Assembly: GCF_016595465.1 (NCBI RefSeq)
Contig: NZ_JAENIK010000009.1
Location: 310,001 to 374,000, forward strand
Direction of reading: 5' to 3'
DNA: 64,000 nt
Source of the DNA: Luteolibacter yonseiensis
GTDB lineage: Bacteria > Verrucomicrobiota > Verrucomicrobiia > Verrucomicrobiales > Akkermansiaceae
Numbering within the stretch: position 1 is the stretch's first letter; each line of letters begins with the position of its first letter. Made by a program: the position numbers and the translations under genes. The notes under the pieces are model-generated. The model did no database searches. It was not told where the DNA came from and saw only the letters and a list, made by a program, of their open reading frames with translations. Below are positions 6,602 to 49,300 of this stretch, piece by piece.

Positions 6602-6633
6602 TTTTCCTCCCCTGTGTAAGGATTGAATTCACC

Positions 6634-6663: not shown

Positions 6664-6678
6664 GAGAGTTCTATTTCC

Positions 6679-7248: not shown

Positions 7249-7254
7249 TGGCTG
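7243..7254. other. attL: left junction of the mobile element
   Basis: CTCCAA-T-GGCTG here matches CTCCAA-G-GGCTG at 45347-45358 with one mismatch. Outside it lies comM coding sequence; inside it lies the recombinase gene. Joining the inner flanks gives CAGCCATT (45339-45346), CTCC and AATGGCTG (7247-7254), a perfect 8-bp dyad around the core. Dyad symmetry is expected for serine-recombinase sites. The exact crossover dinucleotide within CTCC cannot be read from one junction pair. Confidence 0.85.
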
Positions 7255-7273
7255 CTTGATTTAGGTATTTCAA

Positions 7274-9037: not shown

Positions 9038-9040
9038 CGA

Positions 9041-9979: not shown

Positions 9980-10156
9980 GCCACTTTTTCGGCGGCGTTC
10001 ATCCCTTGGGGGGGCGCGTCCCGTCGATCACTGGCTGTCCAGCCTTACGGCGTGCTCGGTTGCCGTTGCCTCGCCGAGGCGGAGTAATATTCCATCCAAC
10101 TGCCCGGCAAACGATTGTCTGGGACGTTTCCGACAGTGAATTCAGTGGGATGAAAA

Positions 10157-15094: not shown

Positions 15095-15097
15095 AGT

Positions 15098-18882: not shown

Positions 18883-18888
18883 GGTGTA

Positions 18889-22378: not shown

Positions 22379-22584
22379 TAGAAGATTCTGCCATCGCCGG
22401 AAACCCTGTAGTGAAAAATCCCGCCACCGGATCGGCGGGGGAGAAAATCAACTGGGCACTCGTGGATAGAGGACGGTACGAAAACGATGGATACGCATCA
22501 ACGTATCGAGATTTCAGGATGCGTTCAAATGAGTAGTTGCGTTGTATCGCGCATCTGGTATGGTCAAGCGATTTTTCCACCAAC

Positions 22585-24063: not shown

Positions 24064-24575
24064 AACGCGCCTATCCACAGCACACCAGCCACGGGATGCA
24101 TTATCGTCGCTCGTTGTACGAGAGGCTGATCGCTCCCCGTGGCGGAAATCGGAGAAGTCCCAAAATAATTGGAGGAATCAAACACGATGGCGGGCAGTCA
24201 GACATCATTATTGCAAACCATGGTAATCCACTTATTTCATCCCCGTGGGTCAACTGCAGAGAGCCGTGGGTTCGGCGTAGCGTGGACTGGCATTTTCTGA
24301 ATTTCGGCGCGAAACACCCTAAGACTCAGTTTTGTTGGGTGCTCGACCTGGAATGGAAAGATCACTTCCGTGAGAGACTCGATGCGGACGAGGCTCCCGA
24401 AGTTCTTTGCGAGGACGCGGCCCACTGGCAGGTGGAAGCGATGAGGCGAGTTCTCTCCCGGCACTGGCATGGATGGAAACAGGGCATCGACGAATGGCCT
24501 AGGGAGTGGGTGGATTATTCCCACGGTAGAGCTGGCGTTGAGGAGTATTTGGAGGGACGATACCGCGCAGTATGA
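24060..24575 (+). CDS. Unknown middle protein of the Pycsar-like operon
   Basis: A 171-residue protein overlapping both the cyclase and the membrane effector gene by 4 bp (ATGA), so it belongs to the operon. It is rich in Trp, His and Arg. Visible phrases are HGMHYRRSLYERL, KHDGGQSDIIIANHG, WVLDLEWKDHFRE and WPREWVDYSHGRAG. No membrane segment or known catalytic motif is seen. Two-gene cyclase-effector operons are the usual Pycsar form, so this may be a regulator, sensor or ancillary effector not yet described. Confidence 0.75.
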   Translation: MKRAYPQHTSHGMHYRRSLYERLIAPRGGNRRSPKIIGGIKHDGGQSDIIIANHGNPLISSPWVNCREPWVRRSVDWHFLNFGAKHPKTQFCWVLDLEWKDHFRERLDADEAPEVLCEDAAHWQVEAMRRVLSRHWHGWKQGIDEWPREWVDYSHGRAGVEEYLEGRYRAV

Positions 24576-25330
24576 GACAATTGTTAGGATTATTGCTTAA
24601 TGGGCTGGACCAACCGGTTTCCGTGGCATCACCCCGGATGGAAGCCCACGATTCCCCTGAGGGAGTCGACCTTGCGGCGAAGCTCAGCTTTGAAGCTACG
24701 GTCGCCCAAATGTCGCGTGGGTTTGAGAACACCCAGCGTGTCATCCAGTTCATGGACGCGAAAGCCGGCGCGGTGATCGCGCTGTGCTTGGGCATCTTCA
24801 TCCTGACAGGGAAGCTGGTCGTTGGCGTCTATGACCGCCTGGGCGAAGGAATGCTGACCTCCCACCATGCACCAGTTAATTTCATGATCTGGGGGATGAC
24901 TGCGATTGTCGTAGGGGTGGGACTGACGGGGTTTATTTCTCTCCATTTCGCTTTTGGCGCGGTAAAACCCAACGGCCTCCCACAGCCGGAGCATTTCACG
25001 ACTTTGTTCCCCGCGGCCAAGAAACCTTGGGAGCAGCCTGATCTCACGAATTATATGGGGAGGGCGGTGGCAGGTGAAAACCAGCACTTTGTCCTTGATG
25101 AATTCCGACGCCAGCTGCTGGCGCTGGGAGACATCGTGTTTCGGAAGATCAATTGCCTGAAGACCGCAATCTTCTTCCTTTGGTGGCAGGGGTTGTTCTC
25201 CTTCCTTCTGTTGGTTTTTATCGGTGTAGTGGTGGGTTTCGGTCTATACCCGAAGAAGGCGGACCTTCCACCCAAGCCGTTCCCCGTAACCATTTTGCCT
25301 GCCGGTTCGATTCAAGGAGCAAACCCGTAA
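24572..25330 (+). CDS. PycTM-like transmembrane effector
   Basis: A 252-residue membrane protein with hydrophobic helices at about residues 63-82, 100-124 and 196-222. The motif QRVIQFMDAKAGAVIALCLG (residues about 49-68) matches the conserved D-x-K-A start of the Pycsar effector (DUF5706/PycTM) family. This family binds a cyclic pyrimidine nucleotide and damages the inner membrane to abort infection. It is the third gene of the operon, overlapping the middle gene by 4 bp. Confidence 0.82.
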   Translation: MRQLLGLLLNGLDQPVSVASPRMEAHDSPEGVDLAAKLSFEATVAQMSRGFENTQRVIQFMDAKAGAVIALCLGIFILTGKLVVGVYDRLGEGMLTSHHAPVNFMIWGMTAIVVGVGLTGFISLHFAFGAVKPNGLPQPEHFTTLFPAAKKPWEQPDLTNYMGRAVAGENQHFVLDEFRRQLLALGDIVFRKINCLKTAIFFLWWQGLFSFLLLVFIGVVVGFGLYPKKADLPPKPFPVTILPAGSIQGANP

Positions 25331-25334
25331 AGCC

Positions 25335-26261
25335 TCAGAGGCCATCGTGAAACTCAACGATCTCACCAATTTTAAAAGCGAACATTTTTGGCGGTGCTGA
25401 GTCCGCATAAGCCGTGACGAGGAATGAGTCGAGGGTTTCATGCTTATCATCCCAAGTTCCGCCGAAGCTCACCGGGATATTTCCTTTCCATCTGGCTCTT
25501 GGGAACAGTGGGGACCTCATGTTGTTTCCGGCTGATACTCGAAAATATTTCAAATTCGGTTCTGTAGGGTCGTCCTCCATGTAATTTGGGTCCGCGTAGC
25601 CTGTGGCCCGTCCACGATATTGCGTCGGTGCCATAATGTTCAGCCCGAAATGTCTGCACAGGGAGTCGCTTACATTTTCAACTTTCCATAAGAGGTTGCT
25701 TTTAGGTTCCTTCCGAGTTTCGTAACGCCAAAGATGCAATTCTAAGCTCACCAGGATCTCCGGATGACGAATTCGGCTTCGAATATCAAGGATATGCTGA
25801 GTGGATAACCCCTTCAATTTTGAGCCTACCCTCTGATAGAATATAAGGTCGCGGGCTTGGTGAGGAGCATCCCCGCTCGGGTCGATCCGAATGACCACGA
25901 CACCTCGACCAGGATCTTGAGGAAATGGAAGAAGCCGAACGCCGATCCGCGAAACAGGAGGACTCACCAGTGAGTGTATCACGTCTTCAAGCCACCCTTG
26001 CAGCCCTCCTTTTATGGAGAAATCAGCCCCCTCATCAAATTTGATCGGCTGGCCGGGGCTTGGATCATGGCAACCAATCACAAGGTAACCACCGCTGTAG
26101 TTGGCAAAGGCTGAGACGTAGCAAGAAAGGTTCTGCAGAACCTTCCCTTCATCCGTCAGCCACCTGGCTGCTTTGAAATCTAGCCATTCGGACTCAACGG
26201 GCGGCAGGTTTTCAACGTAACCAAGGTCCCACTCGTGAAGGGGTTTTAGTTGAGAAATCAT
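25335..26261 (-). CDS. AlbA_2 (Schlafen-like) domain protein
   Basis: A 308-residue protein with an N-terminal AlbA_2 domain: VESEWLDFKAA (about residues 22-32), FANYSGGYLVIGCHD (about 52-66), and later VVVIRIDPS and FYQRVGSKLKGLS. The C-terminal half is beta-rich and unassigned. Related proteins are ATP-binding or nucleic-acid-processing factors frequent in defence islands. Its gene starts 9 bp after the stop of the MmeI-like enzyme and is probably co-transcribed with it. Confidence 0.75.
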   Translation of the reverse strand: MISQLKPLHEWDLGYVENLPPVESEWLDFKAARWLTDEGKVLQNLSCYVSAFANYSGGYLVIGCHDPSPGQPIKFDEGADFSIKGGLQGWLEDVIHSLVSPPVSRIGVRLLPFPQDPGRGVVVIRIDPSGDAPHQARDLIFYQRVGSKLKGLSTQHILDIRSRIRHPEILVSLELHLWRYETRKEPKSNLLWKVENVSDSLCRHFGLNIMAPTQYRGRATGYADPNYMEDDPTEPNLKYFRVSAGNNMRSPLFPRARWKGNIPVSFGGTWDDKHETLDSFLVTAYADSAPPKMFAFKIGEIVEFHDGL

Positions 26262-26270
26262 CGGTCGTGG

Positions 26271-29084
26271 TCAGTTCGGGGACTCTTTCTGGGCTTTTTT
26301 CGGTCTCTTCGTTTTCGATGCCGCAAGGAGTTCGTCTTCGTTGGCGATAAGGCCCTCGTACAGCTTGAAGAGGTATTCAACGCGTTCACGATCACTCTGA
26401 AATCCGGTGGCGCGGTAGCATTTGTCTACGGCGCGATCTAACGTTTCGTGTGCCTTTGCGAGCAAAGGGGGCATGCTAACCGGATCATACAAATCTGCTA
26501 GATTGGAATCAGGAAACTGCGCCCTGGCTTCCAAAACTGCCTGCCCCGCTCTCTCCACAGCGGATTTTTGGGGCGCGGTAGGTGTCGGCCACGGAAAATT
26601 GTTGTAAACCAACTGCGTTGAATACCGGTATCTACTTTCGAGTCGCCCGCAGATTTGTTTCATCCATGCCATGTGAAGGCCCGACGCCAAAATCCCAAAG
26701 TGGTAAGGCGTAGCACCGGGAATTGCAGAGCAACTATTATGGATAACGTTCTCGGGGCCGAAGTAACCAAAGGGCACGTAGTGCCGGTTCTCTGAGGTGT
26801 GCTGAGGCACCACCATAAATTCGGTGGTTGGTTGCCTAATTTCTGCAAACAGTGAAGGTTGGTTGGCCATCCGCTGTGTGGGCAATTTTGGGCTGGACAG
26901 ACGAAATTCTTTTACTCGCTGGAGGCGATCCTTGATACCCCCAATTGTCCTAAGATCGGCGGGTGTGGCATTCAAGAGCCAGAGGCACCAGCGAGCTTTG
27001 TTATATAAATATTCTTCTGCGCAAAGAAGCGGTCGGATATATTTGTCGGCACCCGGATTTTGATTGAGGAAGTCACCACGATCTTCTTCTTCAATGATCA
27101 AGCCGCCCCCATCTGTGGGCTTGTTGCCATAAACGCAGCGAGGTACATCCTGAAGGGGCTTGTTCCTGGATCTTACTGCCAGATCTGCGCCCTCAATTAA
27201 ATAAGGACTGATATTGGAGGCATTTTGCACAGTCACTGCTCCGCCGGCATCAAAGATCTTTTTATCAGGGCGATCGTATGCTCCAAAGCCGATAATCACT
27301 ACGTGCACGTTCGCTCTGCCTCGGGCCTCGCTGAGCCATTTGAATGTCCGGTAACCAAAATGGATTTTAATTTTGAAGCGATTGAAAAGCTCGCTCCAGT
27401 AGATTCCGGGCTGTTCGCCTTGCGTAATTGAATTTGTCGATACGAAAGCCACGCTGATTTTCGTCCCTTGGATGTATTGGGCAGCAAGACGGTACCAGGC
27501 TGTTACGAAATCTAATACTCCAGACCCTTTTAATCCTCCCCAAGCTCTTTCAACGTCTTGTCCTTGCTCTGGCGTCATCAGGTGCTTGCCCACAAACGGT
27601 GGATTGCCCAGAATGAAGGAGCACTTGTCCTTTGCAACTACGGACTCCCAAGGAATTTGCAGCGCATTTCCGGCCACGATGTTAGCAGCGTCGGTCAGAG
27701 GGAGCCGGAGGAAGTAGCGTCCCAGCTCCTTCGACAAGTGCATATTCGCCTGATGGTCCATCAGCCACATGGCCACGCGAGCAATTTCAGCGGGAAAGTG
27801 GCCAATCTCAATTCCGTGGAATTGAGAGACGCGGACCCGGGTGAGCAACTCGATGTCGGTTATTGTCTGGTTTGCCTGGCCGGTAAGTTGGAGTTCGTGT
27901 TTGATGACCTCGGTTTCGAGAGCGCGAAGCTCGCGGTAAGCGATGATGAGGAAGTTTCCGCATCCGCAGGCGGGGTCGAGAAAGTTCAACGTAGCGATTT
28001 TGTCGTGGAAGGCGCGGACACGACGCAGCCGTTCCTTTTTGTCCTTCAGCGGTAGAATGACTGCTAGCTCCGCCCGCAGGTTGTCCATGAACAGCGGGTT
28101 GATCACCTTCAATATGTCGGGTTCGCCGGTGTAGTGGGCCCCGACTTGACGACGTTCCTTAGGCTCCATTACCCCTTGGAACATCGAGCCGAAAATGGCT
28201 GGACTGATTCGAGACCAGTTCAAGTCGGTCGTTGCGAGCAGTGTTTCCCGCATCTTGCTGTCGGTCCCAGCGAAGGGAAGGTGGTCGGCAAAGAGTCTTC
28301 CGTTTACGTAAGGAAAGGCGTGAAAATGCTCACCCAAGGTTTTCTGACGTTTGTCTTCGTGGGTGTTCAGGACCGAAAATAGCTGAGCCAATTGTGCCCC
28401 AAGGTCGCTGCCATCGTCGCGAGTTTCATTGAGGAGGAAGCTAGCGAATTGGTTGGCTTCGAAAATCTGAGTGTCCTCGGCAAATAGGCAGAAAAGTATG
28501 CGGGTGAGGAACTGATCGAGTTGTTCCGAAGGATATCCACCCTCTAGCAGCGCGTCGTGGAGTTCAGCCATTTTCTCGGCCGCCTCGATGTTCACCGGGT
28601 CTTGAGGTTTGATTTCGACCTGGCGCATGCCGGCGAGAAATCCAAATGCTTCAACATTTTTCGGAAGGTCTTCGAGCTTGATCTCCCACTGCTTTCCTTC
28701 GTCGAGGTCGTGAAGTGCGATGCGGGCGAAATCTGAAAGGATCAGGTAGCGCGGGACTTCAACGCGCCTCCCGGAATTGATCAGCTCCTGTATGTATCCC
28801 ATGGCCTGGCTTTCCGCCTTGCCGAGATCTTTGCCGGCCGATTTGTGCTCCGCCATCAGCACGCCCTTCCAAAGTAGGTCGATAAAGTGTTTGCCCTGTC
28901 CCTCGAGCTTCTTCACCGGGTCCTCAAATGAGGCGACTTCCCGGCGCGTGCGACCGAAAACCTGAAAAAAACCGTCCCAAAAGGATTTTGCCTCGGCGTG
29001 TTCTCGGGTTTCCCCCTGCCACTCGTTCGCGAATTTCTGGGCGCGGTTTCGGATTTCGGCGAGTGAGAGTGTGAGCATTGCCAT
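26271..29084 (-). CDS. MmeI-like single-chain restriction-modification enzyme
   Basis: A 937-residue protein in MmeI (type IIL) order. An N-terminal PD-(D/E)xK nuclease has Asp in HFIDLLWKG and the EHK of LMAEHKSAGKDL (about residues 66-80). A helical spacer follows, then an adenine methyltransferase with motif I FLDPACGCGNFLI (about 370) and motif IV NPPF (about 487), and a C-terminal target-recognition region (about 620-870). Such enzymes cut at a fixed distance from an asymmetric site and protect DNA by methylating one strand. The recognition site cannot be predicted here. Length matches the family (about 920). Confidence 0.88.
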   Translation of the reverse strand: MAMLTLSLAEIRNRAQKFANEWQGETREHAEAKSFWDGFFQVFGRTRREVASFEDPVKKLEGQGKHFIDLLWKGVLMAEHKSAGKDLGKAESQAMGYIQELINSGRRVEVPRYLILSDFARIALHDLDEGKQWEIKLEDLPKNVEAFGFLAGMRQVEIKPQDPVNIEAAEKMAELHDALLEGGYPSEQLDQFLTRILFCLFAEDTQIFEANQFASFLLNETRDDGSDLGAQLAQLFSVLNTHEDKRQKTLGEHFHAFPYVNGRLFADHLPFAGTDSKMRETLLATTDLNWSRISPAIFGSMFQGVMEPKERRQVGAHYTGEPDILKVINPLFMDNLRAELAVILPLKDKKERLRRVRAFHDKIATLNFLDPACGCGNFLIIAYRELRALETEVIKHELQLTGQANQTITDIELLTRVRVSQFHGIEIGHFPAEIARVAMWLMDHQANMHLSKELGRYFLRLPLTDAANIVAGNALQIPWESVVAKDKCSFILGNPPFVGKHLMTPEQGQDVERAWGGLKGSGVLDFVTAWYRLAAQYIQGTKISVAFVSTNSITQGEQPGIYWSELFNRFKIKIHFGYRTFKWLSEARGRANVHVVIIGFGAYDRPDKKIFDAGGAVTVQNASNISPYLIEGADLAVRSRNKPLQDVPRCVYGNKPTDGGGLIIEEEDRGDFLNQNPGADKYIRPLLCAEEYLYNKARWCLWLLNATPADLRTIGGIKDRLQRVKEFRLSSPKLPTQRMANQPSLFAEIRQPTTEFMVVPQHTSENRHYVPFGYFGPENVIHNSCSAIPGATPYHFGILASGLHMAWMKQICGRLESRYRYSTQLVYNNFPWPTPTAPQKSAVERAGQAVLEARAQFPDSNLADLYDPVSMPPLLAKAHETLDRAVDKCYRATGFQSDRERVEYLFKLYEGLIANEDELLAASKTKRPKKAQKESPN

Positions 29085-29243: not shown

Positions 29244-29873
29244 TTACTTGCTGCCGGGAAGCGGTAACCATTGGGGACGTTCCACTACCAGCTCGACAGT
29301 CACCCACCGGCGCTCGCCGGTGGGGTTTGTTTCCATCATCTGGTACGTGCCTGCCGGAAGCATTTGCAGGTGAACCTTGGTGGGCACTCTCCACGAATTT
29401 GATTTCCGGTCGGCGATCGCCTCCTGATGAACGATGTCGGCTATCCTGTCGCTTTGACGGACGATCTTCGCGGTGATACTGGCGGTCTGGTCTTGCTGTG
29501 CCCGGTCAGCGAGTGAATTTTGATACCCCGCCGCACCGAAAACAGTCGCGACAATGATCGCTGTCGTCGCGGCCCACTGCCACCGGGGGGAAGACTCGCG
29601 CTTGCCCCTGATCCCTTGTTTCCCAAATTGTGCAGGTGACACTTTGTCCCTGTTGAGAAAGGAATGGATCTCCGATGTTTGGCGGTATACCCGCAGTTCG
29701 CCCAGCAGCCGCGGCAATCCTAACTGGTGGGAGTGGAGGCTTGATGCATCCAGCTGGGCTCCCACAACCTCCTTATATTCCTCGGGTGTAGCCGCAAGGA
29801 CACGGGTGCTTATCTCGCGAGGGGATAACCCTCTGAGTTCGGCGACGGAAGGAATGGGAGCCAGCTTTTGCAT
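29244..29873 (-). CDS. Single-pass membrane protein next to the ParA-like gene
   Basis: A 209-residue protein: a cytoplasmic N-terminal part (about 1-98), one hydrophobic segment (WAATTAIIVATVFGAAGY, about 100-117) and a C-terminal part with alternating strands (VHLQMLPAGTYQMME, RRWVTVELVVE). It lies 4 bp downstream of the StbB/ParA-like gene in the same leftward unit. The order small DNA-binding protein, ATPase, third protein resembles plasmid stability modules such as StbABC. No sequence match is claimed. Confidence 0.6.
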   Translation of the reverse strand: MQKLAPIPSVAELRGLSPREISTRVLAATPEEYKEVVGAQLDASSLHSHQLGLPRLLGELRVYRQTSEIHSFLNRDKVSPAQFGKQGIRGKRESSPRWQWAATTAIIVATVFGAAGYQNSLADRAQQDQTASITAKIVRQSDRIADIVHQEAIADRKSNSWRVPTKVHLQMLPAGTYQMMETNPTGERRWVTVELVVERPQWLPLPGSK

Positions 29874-29877
29874 CGGA

Positions 29878-30705
29878 TCAGACGGTTTGATCGGTTTTCT
29901 TGGATTTGGCTTTCTCCGAAGGGTCGTCAGGTGGCAGGACCTGCTGGTATGGGGGCGCGAGCAGTTCAGGGGCTACTTTTCGGACAGCTTCCTCCACCTT
30001 CGGGTATGAGTCATTCCAGTAGTCTCCAATCACGTGTAAGCCGGACAAAGCAGGGCCGCCAGCGGCCGCATATTCCGAAATCTCAGCGAACGGGACCGGC
30101 AATTGCTGGCCGATTTCGCGGGCCTCGTCTTCTTCCAGCATCTCCATCTGGAATACGTGATTCGGCTTCAGGTCGGAAAGTGCTTTGTAGAGGTCAATCG
30201 GCTCGGTCTGTTCAGTGGGCTCCGCCCCGAAGTTAACCTGGATCCAACGGTCTGGTTTAATATCCTCGTAGGCTTCGATGGCGCCCCCAAGGACGAGGTT
30301 GTTTTTACGGACCGGAGCAATCCCGATGACGGTGCAATAACGAAGGGCACCCGAACGAAGCAGATTATAAATCCCCTTCGTTTTCCCACCCTTGGCGGGC
30401 AGATCAATGATGATTGGGCGACCTTCATCAATCGCTTTCTGGACAATGAGGGGTAAAACCGCACGAGCCTCCTCGATGGAGTTGATATCCCACGAGAAGA
30501 CCTCCGGGTTTTCCAGATACTTGCCCTTCTCTGTTGGGTGCGGAATCAGGATTTGGTTCAGAAGCCCGGGATTCACATCCAGGGCGATGACCAGCGGTTT
30601 AACCCCGAGCAGGCTGCAGATGTAGTAAAAGAATGCGAGGATGGCGGATTTATACGCTCCTCCCTTCGTGTTCATCGCAATAAATACGATTGGTTTCAGT
30701 TTCAT
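29878..30705 (-). CDS. ParA/StbB-like P-loop ATPase
   Basis: 275 residues from the ATG at 30705 (MKLKPIVFIAMNTKGG). The P-loop TKGGAYKS has the deviant Walker A lysine of the ParA/MinD superfamily, but with Tyr where Gly is usual. A Walker B-like segment is RPIIIDLPAKGG. The C-terminal end is acidic-basic and flexible (SEKAKSKKTD). Likely role: segregation or positioning of the element's extrachromosomal form, or coupling of the relaxosome, as for StbB or MobD. It overlaps the upstream 74-residue gene by 4 bp. The frame upstream of 30705 is the neighbour's shadow. Confidence 0.72.
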   Translation of the reverse strand: MKLKPIVFIAMNTKGGAYKSAILAFFYYICSLLGVKPLVIALDVNPGLLNQILIPHPTEKGKYLENPEVFSWDINSIEEARAVLPLIVQKAIDEGRPIIIDLPAKGGKTKGIYNLLRSGALRYCTVIGIAPVRKNNLVLGGAIEAYEDIKPDRWIQVNFGAEPTEQTEPIDLYKALSDLKPNHVFQMEMLEEDEAREIGQQLPVPFAEISEYAAAGGPALSGLHVIGDYWNDSYPKVEEAVRKVAPELLAPPYQQVLPPDDPSEKAKSKKTDQTV

Positions 30706-31017: not shown

Positions 31018-31398
31018 ATGAAAGAGCCACAGCCTCACGATAAGCCGGCGAATTCCCGCAATGAACGTCCCGAAACGTCAATGAGGGTGACCCTATCTCT
31101 CGGGAAAGACGCCTATGACCGTCTGGATCGCCTGTCCCGTGCACTTTCAACCTACGTCCCAGGTGGGGTGTCGCGTTCCGCGGTGCTTCGTGGCCTTTTG
31201 GAATTCGCCGAAGAGGCCGCACTTTCCGTTGCTGAGACCAGATTGCTGATGCTTAACGCCTCTATCAACAATCCTGTCGGAATTCCAAGCCCGGACTTTA
31301 AGCCTTCCGCTGACAATCGCCAGCCGCTGGTGGAGGAAGTGAAATTATGGTTCGACCTGAAGGAAAAGATTTTTGCTCAAACCAAATCGGCAAATTAA
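31018..31398 (+). CDS. Ribbon-helix-helix-like DNA-binding protein
   Basis: A 126-residue protein. The segment SMRVTLSLGKDAYDRLDRLS, then VSRSAVLRGLLEFAEEA has the strand-helix-helix pattern of the MetJ/Arc family. The C-terminal half is unassigned. Such proteins act as plasmid partition factors, relaxosome accessory proteins (MobC-like) or autoregulators. It converges on the 279-residue gene, overlapping its stop by 4 bp. Confidence 0.6.
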   Translation: MKEPQPHDKPANSRNERPETSMRVTLSLGKDAYDRLDRLSRALSTYVPGGVSRSAVLRGLLEFAEEAALSVAETRLLMLNASINNPVGIPSPDFKPSADNRQPLVEEVKLWFDLKEKIFAQTKSAN

Positions 31399-32810: not shown

Positions 32811-32863
32811 TCATTCATTACTCTATACTGGCCAATTCTGTTGGCTTGGTTTATAAGGCTCGC

Positions 32864-34984
32864 ATGAAACGAAAAGGCCCTGATAAAGGAAGCAAGGTGC
32901 GGGGAAATCCCAATGGTAAAACATTAAGCCCAACATCGAAGACGGTTACGTCCGAAGACATGCTTGAACACATGGGAATAGTGCTGCGCCTGATGAAGGA
33001 CGCAGCATCCACTCAGAGGCATCACGTTTCCAGACTGCGGAAAGAACTGGGGCTCCCTCCAAATGCCGCCCTGCCGGATGCCGTTGGCGACAAAGATGGG
33101 CATTCCAGGGATTATTTCCCGACGGTTCCAGAGATTGATGGCGATACTCTGAAAGATGTGGAGCGGAAAGAGGCGGCGTGTGGGCTGCTGCTGGAAGAAG
33201 GTTCGGTCATCGCAGGTCTCAGAATTTACCGCGCCAAAGCAGGTTCTGGAGAGGACGACGCCTGGTTGGCAAAATCCATTCCGGTTGAGGGAGGCCGGGA
33301 ATGGGTCAACCACAACAAAAAGCTGATTAAAGAGCGAGCCACCTATAGCGAATTGAATCGTCTGATTGTGACCGCTGGCGAGGCAATCGGAGAGCGTAAA
33401 GGCGAGGACGTCGGTAGGCGGAAGGAGAAGATCAGGTATGCCACATCGCCTCTCAAAACAATCACGGCACGGTTGATGCCCCACGAGGCCGAAATCCTCT
33501 TTGGCAGCTTGTCCGGGAACGGACTCGACCGGGCGATGGATTCGCTCAAAAAGGATTTTGAGCATGAAATTGGATGCGAAGTCGCGTCTATGGCGGTTCA
33601 CCGGATGAGGAACAACGACCTTCACGTTCATGTCCAGTACACGATGGTGCTGGAGGTTGAGATGCCCAAGAAGGCGTATGGTCCTCTGAAGAATGAGTGG
33701 GAAAAGAAAGCGGTCGATTGCGCAAGGCAGTCCTTGTTTGCTGAGGGCAAACGCGACTTCCCGGCGGCAGTGGGAAAACGAAAAAAGCTGCTGATCGAGC
33801 AGGGCGTGATTCCGCCTCCTCCGAAAAGGACTCGATTTGAAAAGCAGAAAGGGAACCGGAATCTCAAGACGAATTCCCTTTTGGGTTACTCCTTCAAATT
33901 CAAGCTGAATATGCTTCGAGCGGCCCAAGCTTTTCCGGAGGAAACAGAGCTGGCTGAAAAAATCGCGCAACGGGGTGACAAAAAGGGCGATTTCAGGGAT
34001 AAGTTCCTCTTCCGGACCGATGAGGAGATTCAGGCTGAAAGACTCGATTATTGGCTGGAACGACGGTGGCGGGAATCGGTGGCGGCTGAGGTCCCGGAAG
34101 AAATTCGGGCGCGGCTTCCGGCCGCCGCACTGGAGGAGGCAAGAAAATATGCGATCCACGGCACGACGCAGGTAGAAGCTTTCCACCTCGAACTTCACCG
34201 GGATGCGACGGAGAAGCAGTTAGTGGATTCTGAGACGCAGTTGACCCGAATATTGGATGAGGCTGCTGATCTGGAAATCCGGATGGCGAATCTGGCGGCG
34301 GAATTACAGAGACAAAATCTAGCGTTGGACCAACGCGTTATCGAGGTGGAGGGTCGCGAGAATTCCGTTTTGCAAAGCGAGAACGACGCTGAGTTGCGGG
34401 GAGTCCGCGCTGCATTTGGTAAGCTGTTTCCGGAGTCCGCTCCGGTGGCGAATACCCCTGAGGGTATCATCGAGGAAATAAAGATCGGGATCGAGGACGC
34501 GGCCCAGGCCGCTGTGGAGAATCAGATGCTGGAGGCACTTGAGCCTCCGAGTTTGGAAGCGGTAGCTGAAAAAATGGGCTTCGGCCCGGAACCGAACGCT
34601 GAGGGACTATTTCGCCTGCCTGAGGGAGGCCTTCACCCCGAACGGGTGCTCATCACCGACCGGACATTTGTTCGATCGTTTCCCACGCTGGGAATGGATT
34701 CCCCGCAGAAGGGTGAAGGAGTAGTGGAGCTGCTAGCGACAGAAGAGACGAGAGAATCGATCAAACGCTCAAGATCTCAACTACTCGCCCAGTTACTGAA
34801 ATGGTTCCCAAACAAAGCGATTGCGCTCGCCAACGAGGCTCTGGGGGACCGCGCCGGCAAGTTTCTCAGAGAGCTATTGCATCTGGACGCGCCGAAGACT
34901 CCGGCGAAGAAGGCCGGCTTGGCAAAAAAGGCCAAGGATGATTCTCCAGACGGGAATGATCCTTCGTCTCATGAGGGCCAGTAA
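32864..34984 (+). CDS. Candidate relaxase / mobilisation protein
   Basis: 706 residues from the ATG at 32864, with AAGG upstream. The middle has a histidine motif VHRMRNNDLHVHVQYTM (His254-x-His256) preceded by FEHEIGCEVASMA, resembling the HUH/three-His metal site of MOB_V/Pre-type relaxases. A long coiled coil follows (about 440-520), then a C-terminal Lys-rich tail. RSF1010 MobA/RepB is similar in length, but I see no clear primase domain. Expected role: nicking at oriT and piloting single-stranded DNA during mobilisation. The palindrome GCGTTGGACCAACGC (34322) lies in its coiled-coil codons. It is the least certain backbone assignment. Confidence 0.55.
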   Translation: MKRKGPDKGSKVRGNPNGKTLSPTSKTVTSEDMLEHMGIVLRLMKDAASTQRHHVSRLRKELGLPPNAALPDAVGDKDGHSRDYFPTVPEIDGDTLKDVERKEAACGLLLEEGSVIAGLRIYRAKAGSGEDDAWLAKSIPVEGGREWVNHNKKLIKERATYSELNRLIVTAGEAIGERKGEDVGRRKEKIRYATSPLKTITARLMPHEAEILFGSLSGNGLDRAMDSLKKDFEHEIGCEVASMAVHRMRNNDLHVHVQYTMVLEVEMPKKAYGPLKNEWEKKAVDCARQSLFAEGKRDFPAAVGKRKKLLIEQGVIPPPPKRTRFEKQKGNRNLKTNSLLGYSFKFKLNMLRAAQAFPEETELAEKIAQRGDKKGDFRDKFLFRTDEEIQAERLDYWLERRWRESVAAEVPEEIRARLPAAALEEARKYAIHGTTQVEAFHLELHRDATEKQLVDSETQLTRILDEAADLEIRMANLAAELQRQNLALDQRVIEVEGRENSVLQSENDAELRGVRAAFGKLFPESAPVANTPEGIIEEIKIGIEDAAQAAVENQMLEALEPPSLEAVAEKMGFGPEPNAEGLFRLPEGGLHPERVLITDRTFVRSFPTLGMDSPQKGEGVVELLATEETRESIKRSRSQLLAQLLKWFPNKAIALANEALGDRAGKFLRELLHLDAPKTPAKKAGLAKKAKDDSPDGNDPSSHEGQ
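34322..34336. repeat. Palindrome GCGTTGGACCAACGC, copy 3
   Basis: An exact copy of the 15-mer at 16316, here inside the coiled-coil region of the relaxase-like gene (codons for ALDQR). Confidence 0.75.
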
Positions 34985-36198: not shown

Positions 36199-36243
36199 CC
36201 CTGTTGCCTTCGGACTGGGGTGGCAACGCCGCCGGAAACGGCA

Positions 36244-36258
36244 GCGTTGGTCCAACGC
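36244..36258. repeat. Palindrome GCGTTGGTCCAACGC, copy 4
   Basis: Same 7+1+7 dyad with T at the centre. It lies in the non-coding oriV region, about 45 bp upstream of the 92-residue gene. Confidence 0.75.
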
Positions 36259-36279
36259 CAAGCAGGGCGTCCCCCACGC

Positions 36280-36440
36280 CCAACCTGCCGGGATGGTTCG
36301 GACGTTTCCGTGATGACGCCCCCGCGCCACTCTGTGGGGACGGTTCGGAGTGTCCGGGATGACCTCTCCACGCTACCTGTCGGGACGGTTCGGACGTGTC
36401 AGGGTGTTCGTCCCCGCGCCACCTGCCAGGACGGTTCGGC
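36280..36440. repeat. Four tandem repeats of about 46 bp
   Basis: The anchor GGA(C/T)GGTTCGG starts at 36291, 36338, 36383 and 36429, spaced 47, 45 and 46 bp, and is preceded each time by a CCTGTCGG- or CCTGCC-like stretch. The copies have diverged between anchors. They may be a second iteron set or decayed duplicated sequence. Confidence 0.7.
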
Positions 36441-36795
36441 AGCACCGGCGTCCGCACGGGGATGATGGCTCAGCTCGCCGTGGCGCGGATGCGTTCAGGG
36501 GTGATCTTCTCCCCGCAGGGGGGTGGCCTTGGCGGCTCTGTGCCCTTGTTGTTGTCTTGCTCTTGGTCCCGGAGGGCGGTAGCCTGACCGGGCAGAGGCG
36601 CTAGCCTCGGTCCCGTTTTTGGGGCGGGCGATGGACCTGCCGCCTCAAGCGGCTGGGCCTGTCGGCCCGCCTTGGCAATATTGGAATTGTTGACAATATT
36701 GGAGCGAAGAGGAAAAGGGGCCCCATTTGTTACACAAGTATATAACTGTGTGTTGGTTGTGAATCATGAAAAATTCGTTAAATTTGTGCCGATAC

Positions 36796-36872
36796 GCCGA
36801 ACCTTTCGGGGCGATAGGCCGAATCTTTCGGGCCGATAGACCGAACTATTCGGGGCGATAAGCCGAACTATC
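36796..36872. repeat. 22-bp iterons, three and a half copies
   Basis: Direct repeats of the form GCCGAAC-TTTCGG-GCGATAG at 36796, 36818 and 36840, with a half copy at 36862 that overlaps the repC stop codon. RSF1010 oriV likewise has three and a half iterons (20 bp) bound by RepC, which supports a replication role. Confidence 0.85.
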
Positions 36873-37764
36873 TAACGGACGGTGGAAGGAGTGATTTGGG
36901 GGATTTGGGACGAAAAACGGTTGCCTTGGCGGAGTCGCCCCTGCCAACCAGTGAGACCTTCCATCCGGCAGGAGCAAAGGATTTCAGGGAGGCGGTAAGC
37001 GCTCTCCATTGATCGGGGGTGGCTGTCTGATCGTCGGAAAGGGCGAAGACACTCTGGGCAAGAACTGTAACCCGGATGGTCCGCTCCTGGCCCTCGCGGA
37101 GAAGTAGTACGAATCTTGAGTAGAGGATTTGCGAGATTTGACTATTCAGCGATCGCCTCTCCGCTATCCACTGGACGGCCATACCGGCGTTGGTGTTGCC
37201 GGCGATCACGGCGGCGGACAGGCGGTTGAGGAGGATCGTGATGTTGCTGTCCCGCTCGCCGGGACCGAGGAGTTTTCGGTGGATGGCAATGAGCCTTGAG
37301 AACTGACTCCCCTCCGGATTGAGATAATGAATGTTGGTGTTTTCAAGACGCCTGAAGCATTCGTTGAGGCGATCATAGCTTCGCCCGTTGGTGCCCCATC
37401 CGAGAAGGGTCAAGATCTCGTGACGTGTCGCCACGGCGGCGAGGATGTCATCATCCATTCGGACGCCCTCTTCTTTGAGGATGCTGCGGATCTTGGATCC
37501 TCCTCGTACGGTTTTGCGGCGATCAGCGGGAGCCATGATGGCAAGGAGCGCCATGAGGACGGATTCGTCATCGGCGTCGAGCTCCCAGGGACAGATGATC
37601 TCGAGCCGGTAGGGGTTTGTCGAACCAGGTGGGCTGTTGTGGATGATTTCACGACGTGCCCGCCTGTTGGCGGGCATTTTAGGTAGCGGCCTGAACAACG
37701 AGACGGCCGCGAGGTGACCGTGGTGTATCGCGAACCGATATAGTTCTTTGGTATCCGCGGTCAT
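36868..37764 (-). CDS. repC: IncQ-like replication initiator RepC
   Basis: A 298-residue winged-helix-type initiator. Features resembling IncQ RepC are NPYRLEIICPWELDADDESVLMAL (in part), a central ALLAIMAP, LTLLGWGTNGRSYDRL with the helix-turn-helix-like NECFRRLENTNI, and a second domain with RLIAIHRKLLG and LSQSVFAL-type segments. It overlaps the repA-like gene start by 4 bp and the iterons follow its stop, as in IncQ plasmids. Its expected role is to bind the iterons and open the AT-rich region. I rate the family fit as good, supported by synteny more than by catalytic motifs. Confidence 0.75.
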   Translation of the reverse strand: MTADTKELYRFAIHHGHLAAVSLFRPLPKMPANRRARREIIHNSPPGSTNPYRLEIICPWELDADDESVLMALLAIMAPADRRKTVRGGSKIRSILKEEGVRMDDDILAAVATRHEILTLLGWGTNGRSYDRLNECFRRLENTNIHYLNPEGSQFSRLIAIHRKLLGPGERDSNITILLNRLSAAVIAGNTNAGMAVQWIAERRSLNSQISQILYSRFVLLLREGQERTIRVTVLAQSVFALSDDQTATPDQWRALTASLKSFAPAGWKVSLVGRGDSAKATVFRPKSPKSLLPPSVR

Positions 37765-38699
37765 GACCGGGCCGTGTCGGTGGAGGGATCATCCAAGACA
37801 CCTCCGATCCGGGGCCGGTTGGCAGCGGGTCTTGTTGCCGATTGGGCAGGTGTAGTGATTGGGACCGGTACACCCGTGCTGTTCTTCCGAAACCACTGCG
37901 GGTCGTGCATCATTCCATGATTGATTTTGGTCTGCTCGAGGATGACGTAATGGCTGCGCTGCTCCTCAGAGATTCCATGTTTGGCCGCTTTTTGTTGCGA
38001 CGGCTTTCTGACCGACCACGCAGTGCGGGCGGCGAAGGAAATAGCCACCGATCCGCGTTCCGTCCCGGCGGCGTCAAGGTCATCCCGGGCGGCTTGCATG
38101 CCCGCTTTGTTTGTATGGTGGATGAGTAGCCCGCCAGCTCCCCAATCACTCAGCTTGTCTTCGATGCCCACGAAAAATTCCGTCATCTGAATCGCGTCAT
38201 TTTCATTGGTACCCGGAGGCAGAAATCTGGATAGCGTGTCAAAAACCACGAGGACGGGAGGAATTGCCTTACCATTGGCGTCTTCGGGGAGGATAATCCC
38301 GTAATCCATCGTGGGCTCCAGAAACCGGGCATTACAGACCACCAGGTTGTGACAGTAGGCTTCGAAGGCGGCTCCAGCGGTGAGCTGCAAATGTTGGCAG
38401 ATAGAATACAACCGAGCTTCAAGGTCGATGATGTCATCCTCCCGTGAGATGAATACCACCGGTCGCCCTCCTGGCACCGCTGGCCCCCAGAGGCCCCCGA
38501 GCACCGGCAGGCCTGCGGCGATCTGCACACAAGCAACGAGTGTCATGAACGATTTGGATGCTCCTCCAACCGCGGTGATCACCCCGAGTCTGCCCGGATA
38601 TATGCCGGGCAAAATATAAGGACGTTCCGGTTGGGCAACGAGAGCGGCGAGACGGTTCACGGCTCTTTCGGTTAGTTTTCCTGGAGGGATTGATGGCAT
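37761..38699 (-). CDS. repA: IncQ-like replicative helicase RepA
   Basis: 312 residues from the ATG at 38699 (MPSIPPGKLTERAV). P-loop GGASKS at residues 45-50 (VITAVGGASKSFMT), Walker B VLVVFDTLSRFLPPGTNEND (about 145-164), a sensor HHTNKAG and an arginine-rich end match the RSF1010 RepA/AAA_25 hexameric helicase family. Upstream in-frame residues come from the leader and are not protein-like. The gene precedes repC with a 4-bp overlap. A conserved hairpin leader (38753-38769) and the terminator of the upstream gene lie ahead of it. Confidence 0.85.
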   Translation of the reverse strand: MPSIPPGKLTERAVNRLAALVAQPERPYILPGIYPGRLGVITAVGGASKSFMTLVACVQIAAGLPVLGGLWGPAVPGGRPVVFISREDDIIDLEARLYSICQHLQLTAGAAFEAYCHNLVVCNARFLEPTMDYGIILPEDANGKAIPPVLVVFDTLSRFLPPGTNENDAIQMTEFFVGIEDKLSDWGAGGLLIHHTNKAGMQAARDDLDAAGTERGSVAISFAARTAWSVRKPSQQKAAKHGISEEQRSHYVILEQTKINHGMMHDPQWFRKNSTGVPVPITTPAQSATRPAANRPRIGGVLDDPSTDTARS

Positions 38700-38769: not shown

Positions 38770-38803
38770 GCAGCGCGTGCCAACCGCAGGAAAAAACAAA
38801 AAA

Positions 38804-38826
38804 CCGCCGTCCGATAAGGACGGCGG
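38804..38826 (-). terminator. Intrinsic terminator of the RepA-like paralogue gene
   Basis: A perfect 9-bp stem CCGCCGTCC/GGACGGCGG with loop GATAA, followed on the minus strand by TTTTTTGTTTTTT. Confidence 0.9.
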
Positions 38827-38864: not shown

Positions 38865-39656
38865 TCAGGCCCCGGCTTTGATTGTTTTCTCCGGTTGATC
38901 GATAGCCAGGTCGACACTGTTCATCCCGAACCACAGTGGTTCCTCGACTGCCGGGTCGTTTGACTTGATACTGCTGACAATTCCCACCAGTTCGAGTTCA
39001 CTCGGCGGGAGATACGGGGCTTCTGCCTGCTCAGGATGAGTGACCGTCCAGATACGACGCGCAGTATCCTCAATAAGCGAACCCCCGCGCTCCGGTGGAT
39101 TCGAGCGGACAAGAAGTAGGGCAGCTCCATGCCGACTGGCCTCGGCACACACGGTGCGCAGGAAGTCACCTACTGCAGAAGGGTCGTTGAAATCGAGGTT
39201 CGGGACGAAGTGAGCCACATCGTCGATGATGATCAGGCGAGGTGGGTTCTCGGGGTCGACGGGCAACGCTTCAAGTCCGCCCGCCATGAAGGCGTTGGCG
39301 TCACAGATGATGAGATTATCCTTGAGCAGCTGCGCTTCATTTGACCCCTCCTGAATATCTAATTGGCCAAGGAGACCAACTAATCGGCGTGTGCGCGAGG
39401 ATGGAGTATCCTTCAGAGTCAAATAAACTACCGATTGTCCGCCCACACAATCGAGCCCAAACATGCCTTTCAGCGGTGTCCACCCTATCGCAATTTCCAC
39501 CGCAGCTCGAAGCATGAGGTGCGAGGTGATGTAGGCCGGACCGTCGAGTATTCCAAACTCGCCGGCTTGAATTCCGGAAATCACGTCCTCATCCACGAAG
39601 AGGGAGTCGTTGAGGGTGGCTGGAGTGTTGGGGATATTTGTGGTTGGTGGTGTCAT
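38865..39656 (-). CDS. RepA-like ATPase paralogue lacking the P-loop
   Basis: A 263-residue protein aligned along its length with the neighbouring RepA: FGILDGPAYITSHLM replaces VITAVGGASKSFMT; MFGLDCVGGQSVVYLTLKD matches LWGPAVPGGRPVVFISRED; ICDANAFMAGGLE and RLIIIDDVAHFVP match the later strands. The Walker A Gly-Lys-Ser is absent, so ATP hydrolysis is unlikely, while Walker B (IIIDDVAHF) is partly kept. It may be a regulatory or structural subunit of the helicase ring. It has its own terminator and leader, so it is expressed separately. Confidence 0.7.
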   Translation of the reverse strand: MTPPTTNIPNTPATLNDSLFVDEDVISGIQAGEFGILDGPAYITSHLMLRAAVEIAIGWTPLKGMFGLDCVGGQSVVYLTLKDTPSSRTRRLVGLLGQLDIQEGSNEAQLLKDNLIICDANAFMAGGLEALPVDPENPPRLIIIDDVAHFVPNLDFNDPSAVGDFLRTVCAEASRHGAALLLVRSNPPERGGSLIEDTARRIWTVTHPEQAEAPYLPPSELELVGIVSSIKSNDPAVEEPLWFGMNSVDLAIDQPEKTIKAGA

Positions 39657-44799: not shown

Positions 44800-45000
44800 A
44801 TGTCCTCCAAGACCATCCCCAAACCGTGGCGCGTCGCCGACTTGACCTTCATCGAAATCGAGATCACCCACCCCACCGACAGGCAACTGCGGGTCGAGTT
44901 CGACTGCGGGCTGCGCCTCGTCATCGCCGACGAACGACAGATCCCTCTCGCCGCCCGCCTTATCGAAACGTTGCGTGCCGGGAAGGGAGGTCTCAAGTGA
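44800..45000 (+). pseudogene. IS66-family TnpA-like remnant
   Basis: A 66-residue frame resembling the accessory TnpA of IS66 elements in its C-terminal half: HPTDRQLRVEFDCGLRLVI followed by ADERQIPLAARLIETL. The stop overlaps the TnpB start (GTGA), the usual IS66 arrangement. No complete IS with TnpC or inverted repeats is present, so it is a leftover fragment. Confidence 0.6.
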
Positions 45001-45263
45001 TAGGCTTTCCCTCCGGCGTGCGGGTGCATCTAGCGATCGAACCCCACGACATGCGCAAGTCCTTCAACGGTCTCGCCGCCGTCGCCGGACATCTCGCGGT
45101 CCGGGGACTGGAAAGCGGAGCCCTCTTCGCCTTCACCAACAAACGGCGAAACCGTCTCAAAGTCCTCTACTACGACCGCACGGGCGTCTGCGTGCTCTCG
45201 AAAAGGCTTGAGACCGGCACATCCACCCGGCCCGCTCCTTCGTCCGCCGGGGCCTCCACCTGA
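44997..45263 (+). pseudogene. IS66-family TnpB, 3'-truncated
   Basis: 88 residues with the TnpB core: FPSGVRVHLAIEPHDMRKSF, then ALFAFTNKRRNRLKVLYYD and RTGVCVLSKRLETGT. The C-terminus then diverges (STRPAPSSAGAST) from the family pattern and the protein is short of the usual 110-120 residues, suggesting a frameshift or truncation. It starts with GTG. It lies about 85 bp from attR. Confidence 0.85.
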
Positions 45264-45328: not shown

Positions 45329-46318
45329 TTAAATTCCACAGCCATTCTCCAAGGGCTGGCGCAGCACTTCGAGCGTCTGCCTGCGGAACTCGGGCAGCTC
45401 GTCGAGGAAAAGCACGCCGTGGTGCGCCAGCGAGACCTCGCCGGGGCCGGGGTTCTGTCCGCCACCCAGCAGGCCCGCGTCCGAGATGGTGTGGTGCGGC
45501 GCGCGGAAGGGGCGGGTTGTTATAAATGATTTCTTGGAATCGAGCATGCCCGTCACCGAGTGGATCTTGGTGGTCTCGATGGCGTCGTCCTCCGTCATGT
45601 CCGGCATGATGGTGGGGATGCGCTTGGCGAGCATGGATTTCCCGGTGCCCGGCGGCCCGACCATGATGATGTTGTGTCCTCCGGCGGCGGCGACCTCCAG
45701 CGCCCGCTTGACGTGGTGCTGGCCCTTCACCTCGTCGAAATCCACCTCATAGCTGCGGTGGGAGTTGAAGAACGCCCGGCGGTCCAGTTGGTAGGGCGGG
45801 ATGATGACGTCGCCATTGAGGAAATCCCACGCCTGCTTGAGGTTGCGGATCGGGAAGACCTGGATGCCGTCGATGACGGCGGCCTCCGGGGCGTTCGCCT
45901 CCGGCACCAGCAGCCTCGCCCGCCCGCGCTTCTTCGCCTCCAGCGCGATGGCGAGCACCCCCTTCACCGGACGCACCGCGCCGTCGAGGCCCAGCTCGCC
46001 GACGACACAGCAGTCCTCGGCGTCGAAGGGCTTGGTGCCGCTCGCCGCGACCATGGCGAGGGCGATGGGCAGATCGAACGACGGCCCCTCCTTTTTCAAG
46101 TCCGCCGGAGCGAGGTTCACCGTTTTCACCCCGTCATCCAGAGCCAGCGCGGATGCGCCGATGGCGGAGATCACCCGCTGCGACGACTCACGCACCGCGG
46201 CATCCGGCAGTCCGACGATGATGACTACCGGCTTCTCCGCCCCACGGGCGTTGACCTCGACTTCGACTTCCAGGGCATCGACACCGCGCAACGCGGCTGA
46301 AAATAAGCGGGTAATCAT
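45329..46318 (-). pseudogene. comM: comM (yifB) 5' half
   Basis: The frame starts at [16 protein letters not shown] (ATG at 46318) and has the ComM N-terminal domain ([18 protein letters not shown], in part; [20 protein letters not shown], in part), Walker [16 protein letters not shown] and Walker [12 protein letters not shown]. Native sequence ends at QPLE (about 45353); eight further codons (ending NGCGI) come from the element before a stop at 45329. The protein would lack sensor, arginine-finger and lid regions and is expected to be inactive. The 3' half is at 6679-7248. Confidence 0.95.
45347..45358. other. attR: right junction of the mobile element
   Basis: CTCCAA-G-GGCTG matches attL with one mismatch. 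Immediately to the right comM coding sequence resumes on the minus strand (EVLRQPLE). To the left, CAGCCATT completes the dyad that pairs with AATGGCTG at attL. Confidence 0.85.
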
Positions 46319-46391
46319 GCGAACACCTGGACATTGAAAGTCCTTTTCACCAGTGGCAAGCGGAAAGAAGAGGCAGCGTGATTGCACGAAT

Positions 46392-49300
46392 TCACTTTGC
46401 CTTACCGAGAAGCTCCCTGACCTTCTTCTTGGCCTGGTTCCATTCTCCACGATTTTGGAAGACCACCTGGCCTTCCTGATTAATCACTACCGTGAGCCAG
46501 TATTGCGCACCAAACGCCTTGCTCATGGCTTCTTTTTCCGACTCGATGGCCACTGGAAGTTTGAAATCCGGGAAATCACTCGCCAGGAATTCCGCGACTT
46601 CCTCCCGGGGCCATGCTCCGTGGACAACGATGATCTCCAGCTCTTGATCCTGAATCTCTTCCCGAAATCTTTGCAACTGTGGGAGGATGTTGGAGGAGAA
46701 TTTCAGAGGACGATCCAGTCCGACAATTGAAATGAGCCTTACCTTCCCCGGCCGACTTTCCGGGAGAGCCGCGGAGTGGAACCAACTCTGCGCTTTGAGA
46801 GGTGGCGCGGGTTTTCCCACGAAGTCGATGAGGGTTTCCCGTTCCCAGGGCGCAGGCCTGTCCGACGGTTTGACCACGACGTCCCCGCCACCCGTTCTCA
46901 CCCGCACTTCGGCATGGAACATGAATTCTCCTTGCGACCGCTTGGTGGCCTGCACGAACAGCCATCCTTTCACCAAGCCCCTCAAGACGAACTTCCCATC
47001 AGAATCCGAGATTGCAGTTGCATCTCTTGTTTGAAATTCACCCGACGCCTGCACCTTCGCTCCCGACACCGGATTTCCTGAAGCGTCCACGACTTTGCCC
47101 GTCATTGTCGCATCAGCAGGATACAGCAGGATCGGCTCAAGCTCCACCGCCTGCCCTGCTTTGAATCCCGCAAACGACGAATTACTCCCGTAGCCATTTT
47201 TCGATCCATAGAAAATGATCTGCTTGCCGGGTATGACCTTCTTCGTTTGAAAACGACCGTCTTTATCCGTGATAGCCTTGACTGGTACTCCTGCGGCCTC
47301 CGTTCCGTTCCAATGCACCATAGCCCCGGCAATGGGTTTACCCTCCACATCCACCACACGGCCGGATGCACTGGCGAATCCGCCAGCCATCAGCACCAGT
47401 TTCACATCGCTCCCGACCGGATAGGTCGCCCCGCCAGGTGAACTAAGACCATCTGATTCCGCCAAAAGTCCTGCTGTTTCAATTCCAGCAGGCAAGTCTA
47501 TTGAGAACTTGCCCGCCGCATCAGTGACCACTTTGGGAGGGCCGAATGCGCTGACGGTCGGCGAAACGCAAGTCACATTCGCCCCTGCGACCGGCTGCCC
47601 CGATTCATTTACCACCAGCCCACTGATCCTGCTTTCACGTGGGAGCGCGAAGTCAGCGGTGTAAGTTCCGCCGTTTTCCACTTCCACGCTCTGTGAAAGT
47701 TGATTGGTATCTTTGTTGGCGCTGGAATATCCATCCGGCACAAGACCAGCAAGATAGACTTTCCGCATCCCTGCTGGCACCCGAATTTGAAATCCTCCGC
47801 TTCGGTCTGTTCTCCCGGTCCAGCTCGCAAGAGGGAGTGAATCTTTAGGAGAAACCACGCAAACCAGCATATCACCCACCGCCGCACCTGTGTCCGAAAG
47901 TGTTATTTTCCCAGTGATCAAACCACCTTCCAAAATATTGGGATTCACTTCCTTTCGGAACTCTCCGGTTTTCAGATTCAATTCTGTTGGATCGGCCGTC
48001 CAATCGGCTTTCAACTTATCATTCAGACGAACTTGAAGCGCATAGTCAGCAGGGATCAATCGTTGCAATTCATATCGCCCCTTTGCGTCAGTCAATGTTT
48101 CGGCTGTGACACCACCGTGAACATAACCGGAATTTTCAAGGATGTTAACCTTCGCTCCGCTCACTGGAGTGCCATCCGGAAGCAGGACGGTTCCCCAAAC
48201 CGTCACAGCGGGATTCAGCTGTAATTCAATCTCACCTTTCTTCTCCTCAGGCCGATATTGGAACGCTTGATGGTTGTGGCCGGGGATCTGCTCATACTTC
48301 GGGTTATCGTGATCCACGAAATATAGCCCCGCAGGCAGGCCTTCAATGGAACATCGCCCATTCCCGTCGGTAACCGCATTCCAAAAGCCAGCGGGAAGGA
48401 GAGGAAGCCGCCCCCAGAATTTCGGTCCTTCCAAATCATCCCCGCTGTAAACCGGGATCTGAGCCCTGACCACACGAAGCCGCAGATTGGAAATAGGCGT
48501 CCGCTTCTCGTCCAAGAGGCGAAAGCGCAATGGCAATCCCTGGGTCAATCTGATCTCCAGCGATGAATTGGCAGGAGGAATCTGTCTTGAAACCGCTCCA
48601 TATCCCGACAGGGCGTGTTTGACGACCAGATGAATCGTTAGATATTCCGTCACACGCCACTCCGGCCGGATTGGGATTTTCAGCTCTCCGGCTCCGTCGG
48701 TTTTCCCCGCCAGGGCCATCCGCTCTATCAGCTCTCCTTCTACAGTTTCCATCACCGCTGAATATACCTCCGCATCAGCCGCAGGTGCTCCTTCGGAAGA
48801 GATGACGTGACAGGTAAAGGTATCGGCTGCCGGATTTATCGTAATTTCCCGCTCTTTCCCGGGCTTGGGCGGTTGGGTTAGCCCGACCGCTGCCAACCCC
48901 AACAAGATCATCGCGGAGCCATATCCTGCCCACCGGTTGCGTTTTCCCGTGAATCTTCCAATTCCCATCATCCTCCGCCGCAGGTCTTGAGGGCTTTCCA
49001 CCACACTCACAATCCCTGCATACCCCGAGCGCGGCTTCGTGTTCTGATCCAGCAACCGCAACAACATCTCCCCGTAGTCCCCCACGTGCTTCGCTCCTGC
49101 CCTGCGCAATACCCAGGCATCCGTCGCCCTCTCGCTCTCTATCCGTGTCCGATGAAATGCCCACCACACCAACGGGTTGAACCAATGAACCGCTTGTAAC
49201 AGTGCCAGCGCCAGATTCACCCAGAGATCCCGACGCCGCCAATGCCCCAACTCGTGAAGAAGCACCAGCCGGAGCTCTGTCTCGGACAGCCGTTCCAGCG

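Follow-up and report, generated by a model that had tools for sequence, protein, structure and literature searches.

Can an island integrated in a bacterial chromosome replicate as a plasmid once it has been excised? This question is raised by positions 36199–38699 of a 64,000-nucleotide stretch of Luteolibacter yonseiensis DNA (contig NZ_JAENIK010000009.1, positions 310,001 to 374,000), hereafter the window, by which we mean the whole stretch that was analysed. A preliminary description made from the sequence letters had noticed there an IncQ-like replicon within a serine-integrase element. We found that this replicon, consisting of the helicase gene repA, the initiator gene repC and a putative origin of vegetative replication (oriV), lies within an integrated element whose ends in comM are clean. 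We consider it reasonably probable that the region serves this 38-kb integrative mobilisable element as its replication module and that the element replicates as an excised circle. An IncQ-type replicon in an integrated element is of a known kind, and RepA-RepC islands (GIsul2 and the IncP islands in guaA) have been known already. New here are the serine integrase, the comM site, a missing primase combined with an unusual P-loop, and a duplicated, decayed helicase gene.

The repA-repC module and its putative origin

The gene repA (37761–38699, minus strand, from an ATG start; its open reading frame, ORF, is extendable to a TTG start at 38783) encodes a replicative helicase of the RSF1010 RepA type. 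The protein matched the solved RSF1010 RepA helicase (PDB 1g8y, E 2.8e-19) and the AAA_25 family (82.2 bits), and it retains the Walker B aspartate, the HH motif and the C-terminal KxN motif; its relatives occurred in 793 of 72,556 plasmid records. The adjoining gene repC (36868–37764, minus strand), predicted from Pfam, tblastn and a model fold to encode an iteron-binding initiator, overlaps repA by the 4 bp that the preliminary description had reported (ATGA on the minus strand, 37761–37764). In tblastn, RepC and its counterparts on three plasmids shared 28–29% identity over 92%; the two of these plasmids that were fetched were both typed IncQ1, and the match to the RepC of an IncQ1-typed plasmid was 29% over 92% (E 8e-12). 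A structure model of RepC, computed with 31 of 41 RepC references, all 31 from a genome scan for related loci (see below), reached a predicted local distance difference test (pLDDT) of 79 and a predicted template modelling score (pTM) of 0.80. In VIA-align, this model aligned to RctB (Z 14.0, 4.1 Å over 238 residues), RepE (Z ∼10) and Pi (Z 9.9), all of them replication initiators of the winged-helix type, and RepC as modelled has the RepE/Pi/RctB initiator fold. Given the homology matches of both RepA and RepC, the module is IncQ-type by homology and not by arrangement alone.

An array of 22-bp iterons (36790–36871, minus strand) begins at the TAG stop codon of repC, with TATCG on the repC strand in all four repeats. 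In a tandem scan, the array comprised 3.73 copies and scored 35, where none of 200 dinucleotide shuffles of this stretch exceeded 13.5. A repeat listing gave three direct copies in register at 22-bp spacing (36783–36867); the units are imperfect. Of the 39 repeat arrays compared, 24 contained a TAHC core twice or more; on the opposite strand this was so for 5 of 39, and among letter shuffles for 193 of 780. These counts make the core suggestive, not decisive. The putative oriV further comprises an AT-rich block (36721–36780, no strand) whose 33% GC was reached in 0.3% of the element's 60-bp stretches, and a GC-rich block with stems (36481–36660, no strand; 180 bp, 65–70% GC), a candidate single-strand initiation region. 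The DNA fold of 36450–36720, where hairpins for the strand-displacement replication of an IncQ-type replicon would be expected, was only mildly unusual (z −2.47). The iterons and the AT- and GC-rich blocks of the preliminary description were thus recovered, with the repeats counted as 3.7 imperfect copies. Of the features expected of an IncQ-type replicon, the region has a RepA of the RSF1010 family, though with a deviating P-loop, a RepC initiator, and an oriV layout with iterons beside repC and AT-rich and GC-rich blocks. Beyond the GC-rich block lie four 18-bp repeats spaced 45–47 bp apart (36285–36440, no strand; reference copy CTGTGGGGACGGTTCGGA).

Upstream of repA, the gene repA2 (38865–39656, minus strand) encodes a RepA paralogue (29% identical, E 2.4e-12) in which the Walker A lysine, the ED glutamate and the HH motif are lost but the Walker B aspartate and the RG pair are conserved. 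Judged by these residues, RepA2 is apparently unable to hydrolyse ATP. The two window proteins have an insertion in common (NLVVCNARF / NLIICDANAF) that is not in the other aligned RepAs, and they were sisters in a RepA tree (support 100/96; rows shorter than 231 amino acids and one locus, L031, were left out), on branches of 3.05 and 8.46 that drew a long-branch warning from the program. Given the shared insertion and the sister placement, it is likely that repA and repA2 arose by duplication in this lineage. Among 387 genomes of the phylum, RepA2 was found only in its own genome. A hairpin resembling an intrinsic terminator lies between the two genes (38804–38826, minus strand; 9-bp stem plus T tract, a consensus match only) and a second one precedes repA2, which is thereby flanked as its own unit. 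If made, RepA2 would most likely tune or brake RepA.

The integrated element and its putative mobilisation region

The element occupies 7243–45352 (no strand; ∼38.1 kb) and splits comM (yifB, Mg-chelatase family) into an N-terminal half at 45347–46450 and a C-terminal half at 6679–7248, both on the minus strand. The 6-bp sequence TTGGAG is present at both comM breaks as the left and right attachment (att) cores (7243–7248 and 45347–45352, minus strand), and comM rejoined at this sequence could be aligned through the junction with all five intact comM loci fetched from the genus, with 0–2 gapped letters. The preliminary description was also right about the serine integrase: a large protein of 587 amino acids (7274–9037, plus strand), whose gene starts 26 bp inside one element end, scored above the Pfam cut-offs for PF00239 (Resolvase, E 3.4e-18) and PF07508 (Recombinase, E 1.5e-8). 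The element thus has its own integrase and defined att ends, as expected of an integrative mobilisable element, and its GC content differs from that of the remaining window (54.8% vs. 60.8%). A homologue of the integrase, 51% identical, was present in one other genome of the genus (G024). In another, G006 (contig C310; L029 9733–11089), a comM fragment is followed directly by a different serine recombinase, and the genome has a further comM match besides this fragment.

A protein of 712 amino acids encoded at 32846–34984 (plus strand) is a putative, divergent relaxase. It carries the motif VHRMRNNDLHVHV (HxH) and had one homologue of 593 amino acids (L012 10898–12679, E 4e-12), carrying VHREKDGDLHVHF and encoded with ParA and membrane-protein genes nearby. 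The pattern VHRxxxxDLHVHx, common to both proteins, resembles the three-histidine motif of MOBP/MOBQ relaxases; at the compared motif, MobA of pTC-F14 reads HKDTDNLHL. The protein had no Pfam match above cut-off and no NCBIfam, PHROG or PDB match, a search for its close relatives in plasmids and viral contigs was fruitless, and a single-sequence structure model failed (pLDDT 42.9, pTM 0.22). That a RepB primase is hidden in this protein was considered and rejected, as Pfam, PDB, NCBIfam and phmmer gave no primase. The contig of G498 that encodes the relaxase homologue also encodes a homologue of an AAA ATPase of the element (window 9041–9979; L013 17825–18739, 26%, E 2e-19), and neither RepA nor RepC was matched in the 40 kb examined of it.

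Three further genes accompany the putative relaxase. They encode a ribbon-helix-helix protein (31018–31398, plus strand; RHH_1 19.8 bits, cut-off 20.5), a ParA/MobD-like ATPase with the motif KGGAYKS (29878–30705, minus strand) and, beside the latter and in the place of MobE, a membrane protein with one hydrophobic stretch (29244–29873, minus strand). Sequence tests against the Mob proteins of IncQ-2 plasmids were negative or very weak: the ParA-like protein matched MobD-type proteins with E 0.019 and a probability of 2.4% in hhalign, the ribbon-helix-helix protein compared to MobB-type proteins with E 0.16, and the membrane protein had no significant sequence match to MobE. The gene order is similar to that of pTC-F14, since the membrane-protein gene, the ParA-like gene and a small ORF point away from the ribbon-helix-helix gene as do mobE-mobD-mobC from mobB. 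The idea of an integrated mobilisable plasmid, as first proposed for this DNA, is supported by the integration, the IncQ-homologous replicon and a putative mobilisation region with relaxase-like, ribbon-helix-helix, ParA-like and membrane-protein genes.

The element also carries defence genes. A complete type III set of a cyclic-oligonucleotide-based antiphage signalling system (CBASS) is encoded at 12359–15847, with TRIP13 (E 1e-105), two HORMA proteins, a CD-NTase (E 1e-113) and NucC (E 6e-88). A second, CBASS-like set (17352–19662) has an E2-like protein, a DncV-like cyclase and a DUF6602 protein, DUF6602 being a Pfam match also of the NucC protein in the first set. At 22537–25330, a PycTM-like protein (E 1e-9) is encoded two genes past a 508-amino-acid protein without family match that looks cyclase-like by eye, and the two may form a Pycsar pair. 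A Schlafen AlbA_2 protein and an MmeI-type type IIG restriction enzyme follow (25335–29084), and with these the element can be regarded as a defence island.

RepA-RepC loci elsewhere and known systems

To place the module, we scanned 84,980 genomes with a RepA alignment, which gave 79 loci; viral contigs gave 32, and with L011 and L017, 113 loci were analysed. An earlier contig scan with RepA alone as query led nowhere, and a RepC search in viral contigs gave no useful result. L031, which is the same place as L017, was excluded from all survey counts save the P-loop tally. Given that the hidden Markov models of the survey were each built from few sequences, absence here means not detected at E 1e-4.

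RepA and RepC were adjacent at 50 distinct places besides the window. A repeat of period 22 (or 44) was the best one after repC at 35 of 48 evaluable loci, compared to 2 of 110 control stretches from the same loci; among the 13 that failed, three had period 21 with a score of at least 15 and one had period 22 with a score below 14. Of 24 loci with full flanks, 21 had a tyrosine integrase of the L011 type and 20 had both this integrase and guaA, while RepB was detected at none. Over all 50 loci, many of them cut by contig ends, integrase plus guaA were found at 26 and RepB at two. The 26 loci indicate that the module has repeatedly been retained in integrated elements, and these integrase-guaA loci are of the GIsul2/IncP-island type. 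Neither the L011-type integrase nor guaA had a match in the window. In turn, the window's serine integrase, the one enzyme of this class for which the loci were searched, was matched at none of the others. At L011 itself, a guaA island of G316, the stretch from int through repA and repC to the iterons (5673–10495) was 93–99% identical to Chelativorans L046 and 90–99% to Saccharophagus L041, while guaA gave no BLAST match in this comparison; together these point to recent transfer across distant bacteria.

The likeness to IncQ plasmids (RSF1010, pTC-F14, IncQ-3) lies in a RepA of the hexameric-helicase family, RepC, AT-rich and GC-rich blocks, and 22-bp iterons directly past repC in the plasmids fetched, except pRAS3.2, in which the 22-bp scan found no array in the stretch scanned. 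The window differs in being integrated and 38 kb long, in having neither RepB nor a MobA-RepB fusion, and in lacking a 15-bp motif conserved across IncQ oriVs (PMC7557826). The comparison with RSF1010, which the preliminary description called a mirror image, therefore stands for RepA/RepC homology, repeats and AT/GC blocks; it fails for RepB, the 15-bp motif, the P-loop (GGASKS) and the perfection of the repeats.

GIsul2 and the IncP islands at guaA carry RepA, or RepA and RepC (PMC5704250), and circular forms of GIsul2 have been detected by polymerase chain reaction (PMC9376610). Like them, the window has RepA and RepC in an integrated element, beside the integration module. They use a tyrosine integrase and the guaA 3' end, whereas the window has a large serine integrase inside comM, a different region around its putative relaxase and, in addition to RepA, a decayed second copy; its RepA is 26–31% identical to the RepA set aligned for this comparison. 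A further parallel is the mobilisable island SGI1, whose integrase is of the tyrosine type. SGI1 integrates at trmE (PMC8409611) and undergoes plasmid-like replication after excision via Rep and an iteron-type oriV; its Rep is related to IncN2/N3, and the available text of these sources mentions no RepA helicase of IncQ type (PMC7826253; PMC7433901). RepQ plasmids of Rhodobacterales and Gammaproteobacteria carry repA and repQ in tandem, with homology to IncQ repA-repC; autonomous replication in Phaeobacter was shown for a cloned repQ fragment, and the RepQ homologues of Betaproteobacteria are described as always chromosomal (PMC9025767). In contrast to the integrated window replicon, RepQ plasmids are mostly extrachromosomal. 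An IncQ-type replicon borne by a serine-integrase element or inserted in comM was not found in the open-licence literature searched, where absence is no proof.

Probable replication after excision and its alternatives

By analogy with these systems, replication after excision is likely. The integrase would excise the element as a circle, RepC would bind the 22-bp iterons and open the AT-rich block, and RepA would then load as helicase. Because RepB is missing, priming would be supplied by the host or by an unrecognised protein. A transient plasmid form may keep the circle from being lost and aid its transfer and inheritance, and the relaxase-like protein could offer the circle to the transfer pore of a helper.

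Several results weigh against this reading. The RepB primase model PF16793 had no match in the whole genome; two IncQ proteins given to it as a control scored E 1e-30 and 1e-66, and no control genome gave a match. The preliminary description had proposed seeking a primase elsewhere in the element, and none was detected by PF16793 or by phmmer on the window ORFs, where no match had an E value under 0.5 with the two separate RepB proteins or under 0.1 with the MobA-RepB fusions. In the P-loop of RepA (GGASKS), a serine replaces the glycine before the lysine, while GKS was present in 47 of 52 survey rows (three had no match, one matched elsewhere and the last was the window itself). The 15-bp IncQ motif had no match in the region at up to three mismatches (best, 10 of 15 letters), with at least 12 letters matched in 21 of 51 survey rows. 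The Pfam RepC model, which covers nearly the entire RepC, scored 21.6 bits, slightly below its curated cut-off of 22.8. RepC occurred in two of the 387 genomes of the phylum, the other copy being in a different, guaA island, and none of these genomes held a second copy of the element.

Decay is the main rival, in view of the absent primase and the unusual P-loop: the element would now be only an integrated island whose repA, repC and oriV no longer drive replication. The Walker A loss in RepA2, the imperfect iterons and the absent 15-bp motif would suit such a remnant as well. However, repA and repC are intact and overlap by 4 bp, RepA retains its Walker B, HH and KxN residues, and integrated islands, as the full-flank loci indicate, generally have RepA-RepC modules without a primase; we regard decay as possible though doubtful. 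It is improbable that RepA, RepC and iterons instead serve regulation or incompatibility, such as exclusion of IncQ-like plasmids or control of excision and transfer genes, and not self-replication. A regulator might well be organised like repA2, as its own unit between two terminator-like hairpins, and iterons can presumably act as decoys in trans in iteron plasmids, but such a role needs no helicase, and RepA stands beside RepC at the 50 other loci. A plasmid trapped in the chromosome by homologous or insertion sequence (IS)-mediated recombination, with no true integrative element, could be suspected from an ORF fragment near the right end (44826–45263), which we assume to be IS66 TnpB-like. 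With the integrase gene 26 bp inside the end, the 6-bp core at both ends, comM healed by a precise join and a different serine recombinase beside the comM fragment of G006, the ends are too precise for chance recombination, and we rejected this most improbable origin.

Beyond replication after excision, the module may belong to a primase-free IncQ branch specialised for integrated elements, in which, after duplication of the helicase gene, an ATPase-dead RepA2 set apart by terminators came to regulate the SKS-type RepA or to join it in mixed hexamers, and the host replisome provides priming; we offer this as an unlikely extension. Teaching accounts of IncQ replication describe three proteins, with RepB making the plasmid independent of priming by the host. 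The survey, in which none of the 24 full-flank loci had a detectable RepB, and the window suggest that RepB is dispensable in a large branch of integrated modules; in the window, the module is also combined with a serine integrase and with a helicase paralogue that has apparently been inactivated. How RepB-less modules are primed thereby becomes directly testable.

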